Source: an uncultured Planctomycetota bacterium
Lineage (GTDB): Bacteria; Planctomycetota; Phycisphaerae; UBA1845; UTPLA1
Length of the DNA: 64,000 nucleotides
NCBI GenBank assembly: GCA_900696465.1
Contig: CAADGE010000017.1
Location: 1 to 64,000 of the forward strand
Direction: 5' to 3'
Shown: piece after piece, positions 34,194-51,977 of the stretch
Numbering within the stretch: position 1 is the first letter of the stretch
Layout of the letters: each line of letters begins with the position of its first letter
Notes under the pieces: generated by a model
Databases searched by the model: none
The model's input: the letters and a program-made list of their open reading frames with translations, nothing else
Told to the model about the DNA's origin: nothing
Translations under genes and position numbers: made by a program

Positions 34194-34265
<72 letters not shown>

Positions 34266-34343
34266 GTTGACTATAATTCCGTGGCTGATCGCAAGTTAGC
34301 GAGCCTTTCCGCGTCGGAAAGTGCAGCCCGAAGGTTCGAGCGC

Positions 34344-34387: not shown

Positions 34388-35560
34388 ATGCCGAAACTCA
34401 CCAAGAAACTCCCGTCATATCGTCTTCACAAGGTGTCCGGCCATGCCGTCGTTACGCTCGCCGGCAAGGACCATTATCTCGGCACGCACGGCTCGCCCGA
34501 GAGCATCGACGCCTACAAGCGCTTGATTTCGGAATGGACAACGGCAGGTCCAGCAGTTGCGGCGGCAAGCAACGCGGCAACGAAGTCCGGCGCCGACTTC
34601 CGAATCTGCGAACTGCTCGCCGCGTACTACGAGCACGCCGACCGCTACTACGTGAAGGACGGCGAGCCAACCGGCGAGGCGAAGAACATCAAGGATGCTA
34701 CGCGCCTCTTGCAGGCGCTCTACGGCATGACGCCGGTCGCCGAGTTCGGGCCGATGGCGCTCAAGGCCGTGCGGCAGAAGTTCATCGATGCCAGGCTCTC
34801 GCGGCGCGTCATCAACTACCGCGTCAATCGCATCCGCCGCGTGTTCAAATGGGGCGTCGAGAATCAGCTTGTCGCTCCCGGCGTGCTTCATGCCCTCCAG
34901 GCCGTCGCGGCGCTTCGCGCCGGCCGCACCGAGGCCCGCGAGACCGGGCCGGTCCGTCCTGTCTCTGAGGAAAGCGTGAGCGCGATCCTGCCGTTCGTGA
35001 CTCCGCAGGTGCGAGCGATGATCGAGCTTCAGCAATTGACCGGCATGCGGCCCAACGAAGTGACGGCCATGCGGCCGATCGACATCGACCGCAGCCAGGC
35101 GACGTGGATCTATCGGCCCGCCCGGCACAAGACCGAGCATCACGGTATCGAGCGGATGGTCTATCTCGGCCCCAGGGCACAGGCGATCATCACACCGTAC
35201 CTGCTACGGCCGGCCGAGGCGTACCTGTTCAGCCCGAAGGACGCCGTGAAGCAGTCCCGCGACCGCCTGCGAAGGGGCAACAACCCGCCGAAGAAGCGCC
35301 GGCCGTCGCCGAAACGCCTCCCAGGCAACCGCTACACGCGGCGCAGCTATTACAGCGCCATCAAGCGAGGTTGCGAAAAGGCCGCCATCGAGGTGTGGGG
35401 ACCGAACCGGCTGCGGCACTCGGCGGCGACGTATCTGCGGAAGCGCTTCGGCATCGAAGCGGCCCGCGTCGTTCTGGGGCATCGCTCCAGCGCCGTCACC
35501 GAGGTGTACGCGGAACTGGACCGCACGAAGGCAGCTGATATCATGGCGGAGGTTGGATAG
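34388..35560 (+). CDS. Tyrosine-type integrase of the tRNA-Gly element
   Basis: A 390-aa tyrosine recombinase with an N-terminal Arm-like region (YRLHKVSGHAVVTLAGKDHYLGTHGSPESIDAYKRLI), a core-binding domain around 90-170, and catalytic boxes LQQLTGMRPNEVTAMR (Arg), NRLRHSAATYLRKRFG (His/Arg) and VVLGHRSSAVTEVYAELD (His and Tyr nucleophile). AAGGAGC precedes the ATG. Position directly behind tRNA-Gly, transcribed into the element, is the standard arrangement for an ICE or integrated plasmid. GC-rich codon use matches its neighbours on the right. Confidence 0.93.
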   Translation: MPKLTKKLPSYRLHKVSGHAVVTLAGKDHYLGTHGSPESIDAYKRLISEWTTAGPAVAAASNAATKSGADFRICELLAAYYEHADRYYVKDGEPTGEAKNIKDATRLLQALYGMTPVAEFGPMALKAVRQKFIDARLSRRVINYRVNRIRRVFKWGVENQLVAPGVLHALQAVAALRAGRTEARETGPVRPVSEESVSAILPFVTPQVRAMIELQQLTGMRPNEVTAMRPIDIDRSQATWIYRPARHKTEHHGIERMVYLGPRAQAIITPYLLRPAEAYLFSPKDAVKQSRDRLRRGNNPPKKRRPSPKRLPGNRYTRRSYYSAIKRGCEKAAIEVWGPNRLRHSAATYLRKRFGIEAARVVLGHRSSAVTEVYAELDRTKAADIMAEVG

Positions 35561-35741
35561 GCGCCCAATGGGATCAAGCAACGAACCTTGGCCAAGAACC
35601 GGGGCTTCCAACCCACCGCTTGAACCGAGCCGGCTTTGCGGTACGATTCAGGCTGCCGGTTCGTGGACGAGGCAGAGTTCGCTTGGCTCGGACGGCTGTT
35701 CAGTCGTCGAATACAGGGCTTTCCAATCAGGAGACACGCCC

Positions 35742-35957
35742 ATGACGAACGAAACGAATTCCCAAACGCCTGTTTCCCCGACTCAAGATTCGACTGCACC
35801 AGGGCAAGGTAGGTCGGTGCTCGCGAGAATTCAGTCCGAAGTCGAAGAGGAGGCCAAGGAATGGGCTGGCGGCTCAGCCAACCTCGCAGCCTCCGCAAAA
35901 TGTGGTTTCGACAAGCACACGCAATCGTTCAACAAGTGCAGAAGCCGTTCTCCTTAA
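35742..35957 (+). CDS. Candidate RiPP precursor peptide for the adjacent radical SAM enzyme
   Basis: A 71-aa peptide starting at an ATG with AGGAGA eight bases upstream. Residues 1-50 look like a leader: a polar Ser/Thr/Gln/Pro start, then a helix SVLARIQSEVEEEAKEWAGG. Residues 51-71 form a short core, AKCGFDKHTQSFNKCRSRSP, in which two aromatic-X-Lys triplets (F56-D57-K58 and F63-N64-K65) are spaced seven residues apart between C54 and C66. The next gene, 33 nt downstream, is a radical SAM/SPASM enzyme. Small size, leader-core layout, repeated aromatic tripeptides and neighbour all point to a ribosomally made, post-translationally modified peptide. I recognise no named precursor family. Confidence 0.72.
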   Translation: MTNETNSQTPVSPTQDSTAPGQGRSVLARIQSEVEEEAKEWAGGSANLAASAKCGFDKHTQSFNKCRSRSP

Positions 35958-35990
35958 CCTGGTCTGCGATCTTTCGATTGGGTGTCTCAA

Positions 35991-37547
35991 ATGCCTAGGG
36001 CATTTCACGGAATCGGTCCGCTCGGATGTAGAGCGCTGCTTCCGCCTCCACAAGCTGCCGCTCTGCGAACCCTTGAGACCTTCGATCTTCGCGAAAAACG
36101 AAAACTCGCTGAGTCGAGATTGAAGTGGACACCGGAGATGACGGCTTTTGTTGAGCGTGAAACAAAGCGCTTCTTTTCGCTTTGTTATCTAGCACCACAA
36201 ATATCTCATAGTCCCTGCTACAGCGTTGACGAATTCTGGCACATCTTACTCGAAGATGCCGAGGTCTATCGTAGCCTGTGTGAGCCTCTTGGCGGCGGTA
36301 TTGCCCACATTCCAAATACAGAATCAGAATCACATCCTGAAGAGGCTGGCGGAAGCCAAACCGTCGCAGAATATCGACGCGTATTCGGTCGTGTGCCTCG
36401 ACTATGGTTCTTAGATCATGTTGTGCGCAACGAAGAGCCCGTTTTTAGCACGCCTTCTTTTGTGATTAAACTAACGCACACCTGTAATATAGACTGCACG
36501 TACTGTTACATGTTCCAATCGCCGGGTGCGAAATACAAGCAGCTTCCAGCAATGATGAAATACGAAACAGCGACAGATGCCATTAGCAGAATTGTCGAGT
36601 TCTCGAAACACAACGGGATACTTCGCCCGTTCATTGTGTTGCATGGCGGCGAACCGCTATTGGTTGGGTACGATTTCGTTCGAAGGCTTCTACTATTCTC
36701 AAGAGACTTTTGTGAACAATGTGGAATCGAGCCGCGTTTCTCCGTTCAGACAAACGGGGCGCTGCTTGATGAAGAATGGGTGGCGATTTTTTCGCAGTAC
36801 AATGTTTCCGTCGGCGTAAGTCTTGACGGCCCTGCTTCCGTGAATGACGCGCACCGGATCGATCACAAAGGGTTGGGAACATATGATCGAGTCTTGGCGG
36901 CGATGTCCAAGTCAGGAATTCCGATCAGCCAACTTGGCGTGATTGCTGTGGTGAAACCGCAAGCCGACGGTGCGGAAGTACTTCAGCATCTATGTAATTT
37001 GGGCTTCAAGAGTATCTCGTTCTTGCTTAGCGATGCGTCACATGATGCTTCGCCGGCACCAGACTTTGATGGTTGCAGCCGCTATCTCAAGTCCGCATTC
37101 GATTTGTTCTGGCGATCAGACGATGCAGCTCTCAAAGTTGATCCCTTTGAAGGCATGATAAAGCTCCTCATTGGCGGCGTTGCAGATGCTGATGGACTCG
37201 GCCTCGGCTCCGTTGCCCACGTCATTATTGAGTCCGACGGCGGAATCGCTCCGCTAGATTCACTTCGCGTTTGTGGCGCCGACGTGTATCGGTCGAAAGG
37301 AAACGTCAGCACAGACGCGATTGGCGAGCTATTTACAGATCCTCTATACATGAGCGGGCTTTGGAAAGACGCTTTGCTCAGCAGGGAATGCCTTGAATGC
37401 CCGGTGGGCGGCGTTTGCGGAGGCGGGTATATTGCGCATCGCTACAGCCGTGCCAAAGGATTTCGCAACCCGTCCGTGTATTGCCGCGTTCTCCTTGACC
37501 TTATTCAGCATATTCAGTCTTCAGTTGAAGCGAGCCACGCCAACTAA
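35991..37547 (+). CDS. Radical SAM/SPASM peptide maturase with an N-terminal VDxFWH domain
   Basis: A 518-aa enzyme. Residues 60-140 carry VDEFWHILLEDAEVYRSLC and IAHIPN, then VAEYRRVFG, resembling the VDxxWH...Y..C...HxP pattern of small glycine-rich-domain proteins. The radical SAM core starts with LTHTCNIDCTYCYMF (C165, C169, C172) and has HGGEPLL and QTNGALLDEEW. The C-terminal SPASM region ends CLECPVGGVCGGGYIAHRYSRAKGFRNPSVYC, like FxsB/Xye-type maturases. In those families such enzymes crosslink residues in a short precursor, so the peptide just upstream is the likely substrate. The start is uncertain (ATG 35991 or GTG 35982). GC content is visibly lower than in flanking genes, suggesting separate acquisition. 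No protease or transporter adjoins. Confidence 0.88.
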   Translation: MPRAFHGIGPLGCRALLPPPQAAALRTLETFDLREKRKLAESRLKWTPEMTAFVERETKRFFSLCYLAPQISHSPCYSVDEFWHILLEDAEVYRSLCEPLGGGIAHIPNTESESHPEEAGGSQTVAEYRRVFGRVPRLWFLDHVVRNEEPVFSTPSFVIKLTHTCNIDCTYCYMFQSPGAKYKQLPAMMKYETATDAISRIVEFSKHNGILRPFIVLHGGEPLLVGYDFVRRLLLFSRDFCEQCGIEPRFSVQTNGALLDEEWVAIFSQYNVSVGVSLDGPASVNDAHRIDHKGLGTYDRVLAAMSKSGIPISQLGVIAVVKPQADGAEVLQHLCNLGFKSISFLLSDASHDASPAPDFDGCSRYLKSAFDLFWRSDDAALKVDPFEGMIKLLIGGVADADGLGLGSVAHVIIESDGGIAPLDSLRVCGADVYRSKGNVSTDAIGELFTDPLYMSGLWKDALLSRECLECPVGGVCGGGYIAHRYSRAKGFRNPSVYCRVLLDLIQHIQSSVEASHAN

Positions 37548-37574: not shown

Positions 37575-37610
37575 CAGGCTCCGGCCGTCCTTCCGGGCAG
37601 CCGGAGCCTG
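37575..37610 (+). terminator. Hairpin terminator after the RiPP pair
   Basis: Perfect 11-bp arms CAGGCTCCGGC (37575-37585) and GCCGGAGCCTG (37600-37610) enclose a 14-nt loop, 28 nt after the maturase stop. The following AATCGTTTATT is only partly T-rich. It may serve both the maturase and the convergent DUF1580 gene. Confidence 0.65.
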
Positions 37611-37635
37611 AATCGTTTATTGACGGAGCGCGGCA

Positions 37636-37977
37636 CTATCGCGCAGCGGAATCGTGTGGGTGTCGGTCAAGGCCCAGCGCCATTGCGACCGCTGCATTCG
37701 CCTGTTCAATTCGCCGTTGCCGCCCGCGACTGACAGGATTAACGAGTTGCGGGGACGATTCAGGCCCGGCTAGCCGCTCCGAGAATCGTTGAATCGCCTC
37801 CCGACTCGTGTACGTCGTGCCGCCGATCTTTACGGTTTCAAGCCGCACACCCCTCACGCCGCGAAGCGTCCAGCGATAGACGGCGCTGATATGCAGCCGC
37901 TTGCCGTTCGGCCGCGGCGGCAAGCACCGCGGCACGTCGCGCAGGGGAATCAGGTTTTCAACGCCCGTATCAATCAT
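37636..37977 (-). CDS. DUF1580 domain-containing protein
   Basis: A 113-aa protein. The segment LIPLRDVPRCLPPRPNGKRLHISAVYRWTLRGVRGVRLETVKIGGTTYTSREAIQRFSERL matches DUF1580, a family I know from planctomycetes such as Rhodopirellula. The pattern (LPPR, HISAVYRW, GVRGVRLE, TSREAIQRF) is that of a MerR/excisionase-like winged helix, so it is plausibly a small DNA-binding protein, perhaps directing excision or transfer. It overlaps the upstream small membrane gene by 8 nt. Confidence 0.85.
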   Translation of the reverse strand: MIDTGVENLIPLRDVPRCLPPRPNGKRLHISAVYRWTLRGVRGVRLETVKIGGTTYTSREAIQRFSERLAGPESSPQLVNPVSRGRQRRIEQANAAVAMALGLDRHPHDSAAR

Positions 37978-40320: not shown

Positions 40321-41826
40321 CTATGGCCTCTGCCTGAATGCCGTCTTGAGCCAGGTGCGGCCCGACACGGCGAACGTGCGGCCGTTCTGAAACACGATGC
40401 CGTCCACGATCCAGCCGTTCGCGGGACCGCCCGTGCGAAGCCGCGTGAACTCCCGCGGCTGTACTTCGAACTCGAAAGTCTCGGAGAAACCTGCGGAGGT
40501 GGAGCCGCCGCCATCCAGCCAGTCAAGGCCGACGGCCGCCGCCCAGCGTTGATCGTTGTCGAATGAGCTGTTGCCGCTGGCCATGAATTGGCGCGAGCGG
40601 CCGATGAGCGAGGCAGCCCACTCGTTCGTCACCGGGTCGCCGTTCGCATGAAAGATCTTTGTATTGAGATTGGCGAAGAGCGAGTCTGCTTCCGCGCGAC
40701 CCTTGTCGCCGCCGCCGAGCGCGGCATACACGTTACTGACGTTTTGTGTCAGATAGACCGTGGCCACGCGCGCGGCGCGACACGTCGTCTGAAACTGCAT
40801 GTCGTAGGACGTGATGAAATGCTGCGCCTCGTCGGCCCACAAGAAGACAGGGCGCGGACTCTCTGTGACGTTGCGTCGCTCGATACTCCGCTGGAAGCAA
40901 TACTTCCACAGAACCTGCGCGAACTGACCGACCTCCCCGAATTCCTTCACGGGCAGGTCGATGAGGATGATCTTGCCGTTCTCGACGGCCTGCGGCGTAA
41001 TCGTCGTGTCCGTGCAGAATAGCTCGCGCAGCACGCCCCGATTTAGCATGTCGGCCCAGCCCATCCAAGTCGCTTGAATTACAGACCTCGTGCGCTCCGC
41101 CAAGCGAGGCCATTCAAGCAGGAAGAAGTCGCACACAACGCCGAAGTCGTGCAGCTGCCGCGCACTCTTTGGCTTCTGATCCGCTGCCTTTAGGCACTGA
41201 AAGCAGAACGAACCGTCCTGAAACGTCCGATCCGAGACCTGCCCTGGCGACTGCGGCGAAGTGAGCACGACTCGTACAAGTTCAGGAACTGAGATGGAGT
41301 CGGTTGCGAGCGACACAAGATCGGTTGCGTTGCGCATGAGCTTCAACGCGCCCTGCTTCCAGAATTGCCCGTCCTCCCGGCCGCCACCGCTGCCGGTGTT
41401 TCGCTCCCGAATTTCCATGACCGTCGAGAACAAATTGACGATATTTTCGGTGAGTCCTCCGCCCATTCCGGCACGGTTCAATTCCGCATCCAGAAAATTC
41501 AGCCGCATTTTCGCGGCGGCGTCCACAATCACCAGATCGCCGCTTCTATTAGTTGCGCGGCAATAGGACTCCCAAAGTGCCCGCTCGTCGGACTTGGCCG
41601 TAAGCACGAGTCCGCCAAAGCCGATATTGAGCATCGCAATTGCAATCGTTCGCCCACTGCCGCTTGACTTACCGGAGCCGGTTGCGCCGCAGGCAAAAAC
41701 CCCCTCGGACGCATTGCCTAACGTCCAGGGGTCTTCCCGCGACCAGCGCAGGATTTCGTCCGTCAACTCCCATCTCTTTGGCCGAGCTGGCGGGACCGAC
41801 CTTGGTCGAAATAGTCGCCCGAGCAT
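40321..41826 (-). CDS. Type IV coupling protein (TraD/TraG-like, TraM-recognition domain)
   Basis: A 501-aa conjugative coupling ATPase that would feed the relaxase-DNA complex to a transfer channel. Walker A GATGSGKSS is at 47-55 and Walker B PVFLWADEAQHF in the C-terminal half, followed by the FQTTCRAARVATVYLTQNVSNVYAALGG stretch and ANLNTKIFHANGDPVTNEWAASLIG, typical of the TraM-recognition/TraD-like branch. There is no long N-terminal membrane anchor, so it may rely on the neighbouring small membrane proteins. ATG at 41826 shares one base with the preceding stop (TGATG), with GGAGG upstream. Confidence 0.9.
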   Translation of the reverse strand: MLGRLFRPRSVPPARPKRWELTDEILRWSREDPWTLGNASEGVFACGATGSGKSSGSGRTIAIAMLNIGFGGLVLTAKSDERALWESYCRATNRSGDLVIVDAAAKMRLNFLDAELNRAGMGGGLTENIVNLFSTVMEIRERNTGSGGGREDGQFWKQGALKLMRNATDLVSLATDSISVPELVRVVLTSPQSPGQVSDRTFQDGSFCFQCLKAADQKPKSARQLHDFGVVCDFFLLEWPRLAERTRSVIQATWMGWADMLNRGVLRELFCTDTTITPQAVENGKIILIDLPVKEFGEVGQFAQVLWKYCFQRSIERRNVTESPRPVFLWADEAQHFITSYDMQFQTTCRAARVATVYLTQNVSNVYAALGGGDKGRAEADSLFANLNTKIFHANGDPVTNEWAASLIGRSRQFMASGNSSFDNDQRWAAAVGLDWLDGGGSTSAGFSETFEFEVQPREFTRLRTGGPANGWIVDGIVFQNGRTFAVSGRTWLKTAFRQRP

Positions 41827-42206
41827 CACGCCGCCTCCTTCTGATCGTCGTCGTCGGAATCAGACGGTGACGCTTCGCCGCGCTTGGCGGCCAGGGATTG
41901 CTCAAACTCCGCTTCCTCCCACATGGTCCGTCGCTTGCGCTCGTTCATGGCGCCCTTCGCAGCGCCGATCGCACCGAGGATGTAGCCGATGTCGTCAAGC
42001 CATCCGATGCCGGGCACGACATCGGGCAGCACATCGACCGGCGAAGGCACCATCAGCAACAGCCCGCAGACGAGCGCCCACTTGGACATTTCCATTCCCA
42101 CCGACCGCAGCTTGGATTGCGGCAGGGACAGGAGCACCGTCGTTGCGACGAAGAACACGGTGCCACAGATCGCAAACACCTTCAGGAAGCTGAAGAACTC
42201 TGACAT
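41826..42206 (-). CDS. DUF1232 (YkvA-like) membrane protein
   Basis: A 126-aa protein with an N-terminal membrane helix, a second hydrophobic stretch, and the DUF1232 signature SPVDVLPDVVPGIGWLDDIGYILGAIGAA, followed by a charged tail. It is coupled to the coupling ATPase by a one-base overlap. DUF1232 proteins have no settled function; here the placement argues for a membrane partner of the T4CP. Confidence 0.85.
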   Translation of the reverse strand: MSEFFSFLKVFAICGTVFFVATTVLLSLPQSKLRSVGMEMSKWALVCGLLLMVPSPVDVLPDVVPGIGWLDDIGYILGAIGAAKGAMNERKRRTMWEEAEFEQSLAAKRGEASPSDSDDDDQKEAA

Positions 42207-48934: not shown

Positions 48935-49345
48935 CTACCACTGAATCGAATCGACGACCGTCGCATTTCCCGCCGCCGAAAGGCTCTCACTATCCGGCAC
49001 TTCCCGAATCCACGGCACACGGTGACGGGTGAGGCCCTCGAAGAGCCGAATCGTCGGCTGCATTTCGGCGTTGAGGTTCCGACCCTTGAGTTGCACTTTA
49101 CCGCCTGAAACCGTGAGCACGATGCCTTCCGACGGATCGAACGCGAACCGCTCGATACCGTGATAGGGAATGGCGACAATGTTGCCGTTCGCCCGCCGCA
49201 GCTCGACGGCGAGAGCCCGGTCGCGAATGCCGCGAAGCCAGCCGAAGCAGCCCAGGTCGTCTATTTCAAGTTCGTCGGCGGTGTGTCCCGCCTCGCCGTT
49301 GCCGTTGGCACGGCCGACGTATTTTTCGAGAAGCCTACCGTTCAT
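48935..49345 (-). CDS. Hypothetical protein coupled to the relaxase
   Basis: A 136-aa protein overlapping the relaxase stop by 11 nt, so it is translated in the same operon. It reads as a beta-rich domain (VGRANGNGEAGHTADELEIDDLGCFGWLRGIRD, LAVELRRANGNIVAIPYHGIERFAFDPSEGIVLTVSGGKVQL). No family is recognised. A partner of the relaxase is the natural guess from position. Confidence 0.65.
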   Translation of the reverse strand: MNGRLLEKYVGRANGNGEAGHTADELEIDDLGCFGWLRGIRDRALAVELRRANGNIVAIPYHGIERFAFDPSEGIVLTVSGGKVQLKGRNLNAEMQPTIRLFEGLTRHRVPWIREVPDSESLSAAGNATVVDSIQW

Positions 49346-51977
49346 AGTCCTGCCTTTCCTGTTGCCGCTGTGCTTCGCTTGTGGCGACGGCCGGATGCAG
49401 TTGCTCCAGCCGCTCCATCGTCATCGCACGCTGCCGCGTTGAGCGGTCGTTGAGAAGCTCCGTGGCCGACAGCCTCGCGTCGGAGCGGTTGACCGCCGAC
49501 TTGAGCGCCGCTTTGTCGTCGGTGTAGATCGTGGCCCGTTCGCGGCCGCGCGATACTGACACATAGAACTGCTCGCGCGACGCCGCCGGGAAGCTCTGCG
49601 CCGATTCTCCGATCAGCACCCGCTGGACCGTGCGGCCCTGGCTGGCATGGCTCGTCACGACGTAGCCGTGCGTCAGGTGCCCGTAGTCCTTCGCAACCGT
49701 CCAGCCGTTGGCGAGGATGATGTTTCCGTTGCCGTCGAAGCCCTTCACGTTGAAGGTCGCGCCGTTGTTGAGCCGGTGCAGGCCGTCGGCGGTCTTGCCG
49801 TTCCGCGTGATGCGGATCAACTCGCCCGGCGCGATCGGCAACAGGCCGGGCTTGTAGAGCGTGTACTTGGCCGCATGTTCGACCGGCGGCGCTTCATCGC
49901 CGACCATGACGCGTTCGCCCTTGCCGTAGCCCTTGGCGTTCTGGTGGAACTCCAGCACGTCGCCGGCTTCGAGATTGATCGGGTCGCCGCGCTCGGATTC
50001 GGTGTAGTGCGTGTTGAAGAGCGTCAACACCTGCCGCTCGCGGCCCGCAAGCCGTTTCGATTGCTTGAGCTTGGCGCGGATTTCATCGGTGATCCATTCG
50101 CCTTCGCGGTGCGTCGGACTTACGACAAGCGCCGACTTGCCTTCCTCCAGGCTCGCGACGTAATCCTCCGCCATCAGTTTGTAGCGGTCCGTCTCCGTAA
50201 CCTCGCGCACCCAGCCCAGCCGGTCGAGCGCGTGAAGCCCCTCTTCCGTCCGGCCCTGCGAGAGCGACTTGACCGCTTCCTTGTAGGCGCCGCTCTGCCG
50301 CTGAATCTCCCGGATTTCCGCCGGAACCAGGCCGGCCTGTTCTTCGAGTAGCCGCAGCGCCGCGCCTCTTTCAACGCTTCCATGCTGCCTTCGGTCGCCG
50401 GATAGAATCACGCGGGCGTCGATTTGCTTCGCAAGTTCAAACACATGGCCCATTGTCTTCGTACCGAGCAGGCCCGCCTCGTCGATCCACAGCACCTGCC
50501 CTCTGGCCCGCGCCTGCAACTCGCCATCGACCAACAGCCGCGCCACGGTTTCCGCGTCCGCGAAGCCCTCATCCCTGAGCACGCCGCGGCTTGCGTCGGC
50601 CGACGGCGCGAACGTGAAGACATGCTTTCCGTTTTTCTCAATCGCTTCAACCGTTTCCGACATGAGGGAGGTCTTGCCCGTGCCCGCGCCGCCGCGAATC
50701 AGCATGACGCGGTCGGGCGAGTTGAGGACGTGCAGCACGGCGCTTCGCTGGTCGGCGTTGAGCCATTCGCGCGTGAAGACGTGCTCGCCGCTTGCGAGCC
50801 GCCGGCAGGTGCCCCTGCCCTGACGCGCGAAGTCGATGATACGCCGCTCTTCGGCGACTACGTCGCCGGTCGTGACGAGCTGCTCCCCGTCGCGCTCGCC
50901 GCGCACCAGGTTCGCCCGGCCGAGTTTCTGCAGGACGGTTTTGGCCGACGCCGCGCCGTACGAGCGCTTGAGCGCCGCTGTCACGAGCTTGCGCTCCGAC
51001 AGCACCGAGCTTCGCTCGAATGAATGCTCGATTGCCTTGGCGACCGCGTCGCTAGCGGCGCGGTCATCCTCCGCGATGCTGTCCAGCCCGACGCGTGCCT
51101 TGATTCCCTCTACCGCCGCCAGTTCCTCCGGCGTCAGCCGCGACTTCCATTCACGGCCGAGTTCATCGAAGGTCAGATCCTTGCGCTTGCGCTCGCGGGT
51201 CTTCGCCCCCAGTTCGCCCTTGGTCTCGGCATCGGTGATGCCCCTCTCCCGCGCCTGTTCTTCGATGAGCGCCGTTCGCCGCGAGAACTTGGAAAGTGCC
51301 GCCTTCGGCACGCCGGCCAGTTCCCAGCCGTGCCGCGTCCGCTGCACCGGAAGGCCCAGTTCCTCCATGCGCCGCGCCAGCCGCGAATGAAACACCGCCT
51401 CGAAGAACGGCGCATCGCGCTTGAGGCCGGCGAACTGGCCCGCCTTCCAACGCTCTTCGATGCCGTCCCAGGTCGTGTTGAACACGAAGCAGTGGGCGTG
51501 AAGATGCGGGTCCGGCACGCCGTCCACGGGACGCGCCGTCGTGTGGATGAACTCGCCCCAAACCATGCTTCCCGTCGTGCGGTCCTCATTCCTGCCGGCG
51601 AGCCGCACGCGGGTTTTCATTTCGTCTTCGATGTCCTGCATCGTTGCGTCAACGGATTCGCGGAACGCTTCGAGAATACGCTCGTCTTTCGTGAGGCCGT
51701 ACAGCACCGATACGCTTTTCGGCACATGGAAGTTGAAGTCGTATCCGACGCGCCGCCCGGAATTCTGCCGCGGCGTCAAGGCGTTGCCGGTATTCGGGTC
51801 GATGTTGTCGCAGAGCGCATCCCAGTCTTTTTGCTCGACTGCGCCGGACAGGCCGAGACGCTTCGCCCCGTCCCCGCGCCAGCGGCCGGTAAGCTCCTGA
51901 CCTTCCGAGTAATAGTCGGCAGTCGAATAGTAGCTCTTCGCGCCTTCCGGCGCGGTATTCTGATTGATGCGAAGCAT
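49335..51977 (-). CDS. MobF-family relaxase-helicase (TrwC/TraI-like)
   Basis: An 880-aa relaxase that would nick the transfer origin and unwind the strand. The N-terminal domain has tyrosine pairs in AKSYYSTADYYSEGQ (Y16/Y17, Y22/Y23), the FNFHVPKSVSVLYGL block and the metal triad PDPHLHAHCFVFN at about 155-165. The SF1 helicase has Walker A RGGAGTGKTSLM at about 427-438, LWIDEAGLLG, LSGDRRQHGSVERG, and the C-terminal THGYVVTSHASQGRTVQRVL. Length is slightly below TrwC. It is preceded by a 530-bp gene-free gap that may hold oriT and is followed by a coupled hypothetical gene. Confidence 0.94.
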   Translation of the reverse strand: MLRINQNTAPEGAKSYYSTADYYSEGQELTGRWRGDGAKRLGLSGAVEQKDWDALCDNIDPNTGNALTPRQNSGRRVGYDFNFHVPKSVSVLYGLTKDERILEAFRESVDATMQDIEDEMKTRVRLAGRNEDRTTGSMVWGEFIHTTARPVDGVPDPHLHAHCFVFNTTWDGIEERWKAGQFAGLKRDAPFFEAVFHSRLARRMEELGLPVQRTRHGWELAGVPKAALSKFSRRTALIEEQARERGITDAETKGELGAKTRERKRKDLTFDELGREWKSRLTPEELAAVEGIKARVGLDSIAEDDRAASDAVAKAIEHSFERSSVLSERKLVTAALKRSYGAASAKTVLQKLGRANLVRGERDGEQLVTTGDVVAEERRIIDFARQGRGTCRRLASGEHVFTREWLNADQRSAVLHVLNSPDRVMLIRGGAGTGKTSLMSETVEAIEKNGKHVFTFAPSADASRGVLRDEGFADAETVARLLVDGELQARARGQVLWIDEAGLLGTKTMGHVFELAKQIDARVILSGDRRQHGSVERGAALRLLEEQAGLVPAEIREIQRQSGAYKEAVKSLSQGRTEEGLHALDRLGWVREVTETDRYKLMAEDYVASLEEGKSALVVSPTHREGEWITDEIRAKLKQSKRLAGRERQVLTLFNTHYTESERGDPINLEAGDVLEFHQNAKGYGKGERVMVGDEAPPVEHAAKYTLYKPGLLPIAPGELIRITRNGKTADGLHRLNNGATFNVKGFDGNGNIILANGWTVAKDYGHLTHGYVVTSHASQGRTVQRVLIGESAQSFPAASREQFYVSVSRGRERATIYTDDKAALKSAVNRSDARLSATELLNDRSTRQRAMTMERLEQLHPAVATSEAQRQQERQDYER

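Follow-up and report, generated by a model that had tools for sequence, protein, structure and literature searches.

A 64,000-nucleotide stretch of DNA from an uncultured Planctomycetota bacterium, here called the window, holds a gene for a 71-residue peptide (P0001) directly ahead of a gene for a radical SAM/SPASM enzyme (P0002). This raises the question of whether the two belong together as precursor and maturase and, if so, which residues would be modified and by which bond. We consider it probable that P0001 is a RiPP precursor in which the maturase P0002 makes two Phe-Lys three-residue cyclophanes, at F56-K58 and F63-K65. Taken by itself, the pairing of a precursor with its own cyclophane maturase is very probable, and judged by the sequence FDK and FNK are the likeliest modification sites. 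The cassette comprises the following features:

35729..35733, + strand: AGGAG ribosome-binding site of P0001, from the sequence, with the ATG 8 nt downstream
35742..35957, + strand: putative precursor peptide gene P0001, encoding 71 aa (ORF reading)
35814..35864, + strand: leader helix of P0001, residues 25-41, SVLARIQSEVEEEAKEW, YhhA-like (HMM of six YhhA peptides, 11.8 bits)
35901..35939, + strand: core of P0001, C54-GFDKHTQSFNK-C66 (gapless alignment with the YhhA core YDRMHHRHNR)
35907..35915, + strand: FDK triplet, residues 56-58, predicted Phe-Lys cyclophane 1 (from the YhhA position and the aromatic/His-x-Lys triplets of relatives)
35928..35936, + strand: FNK triplet, residues 63-65, predicted Phe-Lys cyclophane 2 (same grounds)
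35991..37547, + strand: GRDP-like/radical SAM/SPASM fusion enzyme P0002, 518 aa, intact ORF
36033..36416, + strand: N-terminal GRDP-like domain of P0002, about residues 15-142, VDEFWH...C...H.P..FG..P (sequence and profile comparison)
36456..37532, + strand: radical SAM and SPASM domains, residues 156-514 (PF04055, 48 bits; ChlB, E 1.5e-50)
36483..36506, + strand: CX3CX2C of the SAM [4Fe-4S] cluster, C165, C169 and C172, all three invariant across 12 aligned enzymes
37389..37484, + strand: SPASM cysteines C467, C470, C476 and C498, invariant in the same alignment
37575..37610, + strand: G+C-rich stem-loop 3' of the P0002 gene (inverted repeat I5), a possible terminator by pattern only

The peptide gene and its leader

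The preliminary description had placed a 71-residue peptide 33 nt ahead of a radical SAM/SPASM gene, with C54, F56-D57-K58, F63-N64-K65 and C66 in its core; coordinates and residue positions all agree, and a ribosome-binding site precedes the peptide gene. The frame of P0001 stays open 5' of the ATG as part of a TTG ORF (35553-35957), and its start is therefore a predicted one. The homologue search that the same description had called for returned none in the 397 class genomes, viral contigs or plasmids, which leaves the exact FDK and FNK sites without direct conservation; NCBIfam, Pfam and PDB gave no match either. The lack of homologues and the predicted start would also fit a chance ORF or an unrelated gene, with P0002 acting on another peptide or protein. 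We regard this as improbable in view of the AGGAG at correct spacing, the short gap, the leader resemblance and the doubled triplet (a pattern, F-x-K(4)F-x-K, that 5 of 9,090 ORFs of 40-120 aa contain), and in view of the small precursor-like upstream ORF that most relatives of the enzyme keep.

With an HMM built from six YhhA peptides, from which P0001 was left out, the leader scored 11.8 bits over residues 25-41, a value reached by none of 2,000 shuffles (highest 5.1). Among the 9,090 ORFs, P0001 ranked right behind seven true YhhA peptides, and the next ORF scored 7.8. Depending on the model, 1-4 of 10,054 fragments of long ORFs scored as high as P0001 or higher; one of these, L131, was in the set because the YhhA model had matched it falsely. 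As far as sequences can tell, the resemblance to YhhA is real, with a significance of roughly 1e-4 to 4e-4 for a short match of 17 residues. The NCBIfam model of YhhA (NF041705, cut-off 36 bits) gave no hit to P0001 at E<=1 and was silent in its own genome. Across 294 Planctomycetota genomes, this model gave one true weak match, L130, and a false one, L131, which is a recombinase. L130 is a YhhA-like peptide (..CATYSRMHHRHSRS) ahead of a 927-aa radical SAM enzyme (L132); the stretch occurs in G199 and G435, two genomes of different families, perhaps owing to transfer or shared contamination.

The enzyme, its relatives and the predicted cyclophanes

P0002 retains all seven cysteine ligands of its clusters. 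In the NCBIfam ranking YhhB (NF041707) came first with 276 bits, under the cut-off of 445, followed by FxsB (TIGR04269; 252.5 bits, cut-off 370) and XyeB (169 bits, cut-off 450), whereas the PapB ranthipeptide and SCIFF maturases reached 107 and 85 bits; P0002 attained the cut-off of none of the models. The FxsB/Xye-like C-terminus noted earlier is present in its letters, CGGGYIAHRYS and NPSVYC, but membership of FxsB/Xye was rejected on the cut-offs, and YhhB scores best. Among solved structures, the SAM domain of ChlB, a multiple-cyclophane synthase, is the best match by sequence (E 1.5e-50), and the predicted structure of P0002, largely confident in its SAM and SPASM parts, retrieved the ChlB:ChlA crystal complex as top Foldseek match (E 2.8e-28, TM 0.89 by target length); the modelled fold is that of ChlB. 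These comparisons support P0002 as a cyclophane-type radical SAM/SPASM maturase modelled best by YhhB rather than FxsB/Xye. Since neither gene reaches the YhhA/YhhB cut-offs, the pair is a divergent relative rather than a filed member of that family. Together with the YhhA-like leader and the gapless core, the ChlB match bears out the earlier proposal of a cyclophane-type maturase with an adjacent precursor. As expected of a triceptide system, the enzyme has the CX3CX2C and SPASM cysteines, and the neighbouring peptide has aromatic-x-x motifs, FDK and FNK, in its core.

The core of P0001 aligns with that of YhhA without gaps (FDKHTQSFNK/YDRMHHRHNR), so that FDK takes the place of YDR and FNK that of HNR, the first and third crosslinked positions, while the middle triplet HHR is lost. 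P0001 thus shares the leader helix pattern, the ten-residue core geometry and two triplet positions with YhhA/YhhB triceptides including ChlA/ChlB (PDB 9gm3, 9gmc; the ChlA chain in 9gmc is a YhhA-type peptide), and P0002 shares the radical SAM/SPASM fold and cluster ligands. P0001 differs in having Phe where YhhA has Tyr/His, and Lys where YhhA has Arg, as well as an 11-residue insert ahead of the core and two cysteines. In published work (PMC11002830), the ring atoms that YhhB links to the Arg C-beta are Tyr C3 and His C2, and Phe is the ring donor for XncB, OscB and MscB. FxsB/MscB, XyeB/XncB and GrrM/OscB belong to the same enzyme superfamily as P0002, but their acceptors are Ser, Asn, Asp and Arg, whereas Lys is predicted for P0001, and P0002 stays under their cut-offs. 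Precedent for an aromatic-x-Lys C-C bond comes from darobactin, for which a Trp-Lys bond is described (PMC9055067); DarE is distant from P0002 (75 bits), however, uses Trp rather than Phe and makes an additional ether bond. We found no Phe-x-Lys cyclophane in the open papers that we consulted.

Further indications come from the enzymes nearest to P0002, with which it shares only 30-38% identity. A tree of 28 enzymes places P0002 outside both YhhB clades and near L003, L121 and the L006/L008-L012 (Burkholderiales/Azospirillum) group; the node has a support of 89/95 and was drawn open, and this grouping is therefore not firmly resolved. Most relatives also have a small precursor-like ORF directly 5' of the enzyme gene. 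That of L121, on a Polymorphobacter plasmid, contains FHAKGSFSKSEHTK, which reads as HAK, FSK and HTK, and that of L003 (Snuella) contains WHIKASHDKTSHIK, which reads as HIK, HDK and HIK, one triplet per five residues in both. Two aromatic/His-x-Lys triplets occur in 64 and three in 6 of 9,575 ORFs, counts that include these peptides. The triplets of L121 and L003 are the best outside support for aromatic-x-Lys as target of enzymes near P0002, and, with the alignment to the YhhA core, they back the earlier suggestion that the two F-x-K triplets are the likely sites. Both systems resemble P0001/P0002 in triplets ending in Lys and in a minimal cassette, plasmid-borne near recombinases in L121. 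They differ in their leaders, which are not YhhA-like, in having three triplets every five residues and in lacking a GRDP-like domain and cysteines.

Other radical SAM chemistry, or other residues of P0001, could be involved: a thioether as in ranthi- or sactipeptides at C54/C66, His59-x-Gln61 in place of one Phe site, or epimerisation. The two cysteines flanking the core occur in no core that we read among the relatives, PapB and SCIFF models also match P0002, and His is used by YhhB enzymes (PMC11002830). We nevertheless think this unlikely: P0002 is far nearer to cyclophane enzymes, as the leading bit scores and ChlB indicate, and Lys triplets are present in relatives free of cysteine. In the favoured pathway to two Phe-Lys cyclophanes, P0002 would bind the helical leader (residues ~25-41), and the 5'-deoxyadenosyl radical would lead to a bond between an aromatic-ring carbon of F56 and the beta-carbon of K58; P0002 would likewise join an aromatic-ring carbon of F63 to the beta-carbon of K65. 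The result would be two three-residue cyclophanes, each with a loss of 2 Da. If true, this would add Phe-x-Lys to the known cyclophane chemistry, with amines left free for bioactivity or conjugation, and would point towards a precursor family with aromatic/His-x-Lys triplets. A two-gene system is also compact enough for direct co-expression.

Viral contigs hold two distant relatives of P0002 and phages weak ones only; the L121 and L003 enzymes as queries found no match in viral contigs. On plasmids, cyclophane radical SAM genes were seen near caspase-like, NACHT and Piwi genes (L146, L128, L124).

The N-terminal GRDP-like domain

Residues 1-155 of P0002 lie outside the radical SAM enzyme proper. 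They matched no Pfam family, and the gathering score of PF07173 was not reached. Five Planctomycetota proteins match this part (best E 5e-8), among them one PF07173 GRDP-like protein and one GRDP-like/TIGR04222 fusion, and hhalign against six relatives, one of which passes PF07173, gave 98.7% (E 2e-16) with the conserved pattern E..., WH, Y, C, H.P, FG, P. AlphaFold modelled the domain poorly, with a pLDDT below 50 when aligned with relatives that miss it and a mean of 45 alone.

The GRDP-like domain was found in 24 of 392 Planctomycetota genomes, in most cases with Cys/Gly-rich C-terminal tails. GRDP-like proteins (PF07173, including the TIGR04222 fusions) have the domain in common with P0002 (~15-142), but there it usually precedes such tails and not a radical SAM domain. 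None of the GRDP-like proteins of the 392 genomes besides P0002 is fused to radical SAM, and the domain is absent from all enzyme relatives of P0002. Long YhhB forms carry a fused HExxH hydroxylase, which P0002 lacks. The combination of P0001 with a GRDP-like/radical SAM fusion was not met elsewhere in this search. The kind of chemistry is already known; new would be the peptide and the extra front domain together, the chemistry itself being predicted.

We found no description of a bacterial role for the GRDP-like domain in the literature. In P0002 we infer a role in peptide handling, most likely positioning of P0001, and the fusion would offer a handle on the domain. A farther-reaching proposal is that the GRDP-like domain handles the Cys-framed core, that P0002, as the first of its class, makes both Phe-Lys cyclophanes and also joins or protects C54 and C66, and that GRDP-like domains serve RiPP-like systems generally as a peptide-handling module that has gone unrecognised. 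We consider this doubtful; the C54-C66 bond is unsupported, as such cysteines are absent from the cores of relatives.

Several GRDP-like loci are worth recording in their own right. In L117/L135, a GRDP-like gene adjoins a B12-type radical SAM gene, and in L135:4167-7861 genes for a B12-type radical SAM protein, a GRDP-like protein and an HExxH-motif protein are consecutive. The E. coli plasmid pMb3362_3 (L138:1557-4782) and about 24 like plasmids of 7.9 kb encode a GRDP-like protein whose tail reads SVCGCSGKGCGAGCSCNSR; genes for an ABC transporter and a cupin protein come next. The tie to the GRDP-like domain is E 0.02 plus a common motif, and the set has the appearance of a RiPP-like operon, so far undescribed, in which the GRDP-like domain would serve as leader. 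A search of viral contigs with the E. coli protein as query found no GRDP-like loci. In three Planctomycetota genomes (L161, L170, L183), a small GRDP-like gene recurs as a pair with a conserved neighbour of ~375-380 aa, which in L161 (identical to L116) ends in CGGGCGGGCSS.

The mobile island and the fate of the product

The cassette lies in an integrated mobile island of ~61 kb at tRNA-Gly, which also holds ParA/ParB and the following features:

34194-34265: tRNA-Gly(ccc), followed by the integrase gene
34224..34268, + strand: left attachment repeat at the 3' end of tRNA-Gly(ccc), with a perfect 45-bp copy at contig 94894-94938, beyond the window
34388..35560, + strand: tyrosine integrase (PF00589)
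40321..41829, - strand: TraG/VirD4-like coupling protein (PF12696)
49335..51977, - strand: TrwC-type relaxase (PF08751)

The locus had been taken for an ICE. Integrase, att repeats, relaxase and TraG-like protein are in place, but VirB4 (PF03135) was not found in the genome, which is 97% complete, although a control was detected. A full ICE was therefore rejected; the island is probably mobilisable rather than self-transmissible, and IME-like is the safer label. A third copy of the att repeat (91%) lies at contig 87606-87650, and the three tRNA-Gly ends (34224-34268; contig 87606-87650 and 94894-94938) suggest two tandem islands.

Neither an ABC/C39 exporter nor a protease was found beside the P0001-P0002 pair, and the same 97% complete genome yielded no C39 peptidase, whereas control genomes gave detections. 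The lack of a transporter and the mobile location had been called unusual, which is overstated, as both recur among relatives: the plasmid loci L121 and L128 are transporter-free cassettes near recombinases. P0001 has G43-G44, and cleavage at a double Gly would be possible on paper. Host proteins might export the product and remove the leader, or the product might work intracellularly. The missing exporter and C39 peptidase and the divergence of the cassette could also speak for a degenerate, non-functional import; we judge this very improbable given two intact frames, the retention of every cysteine ligand and the possible terminator.

The G+C content of the cassette is 51-55% compared to 61% for the window, and at third positions 51% for P0002 compared to 83% for the integrase, which indicates that P0001 and P0002 were probably acquired as one unit, apart from their surroundings. 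The cassette is bracketed by inverted copies of ACGATTCAGGC at 35643-35653 and 37606-37616, with a third copy, in direct orientation, downstream at 37755-37765.
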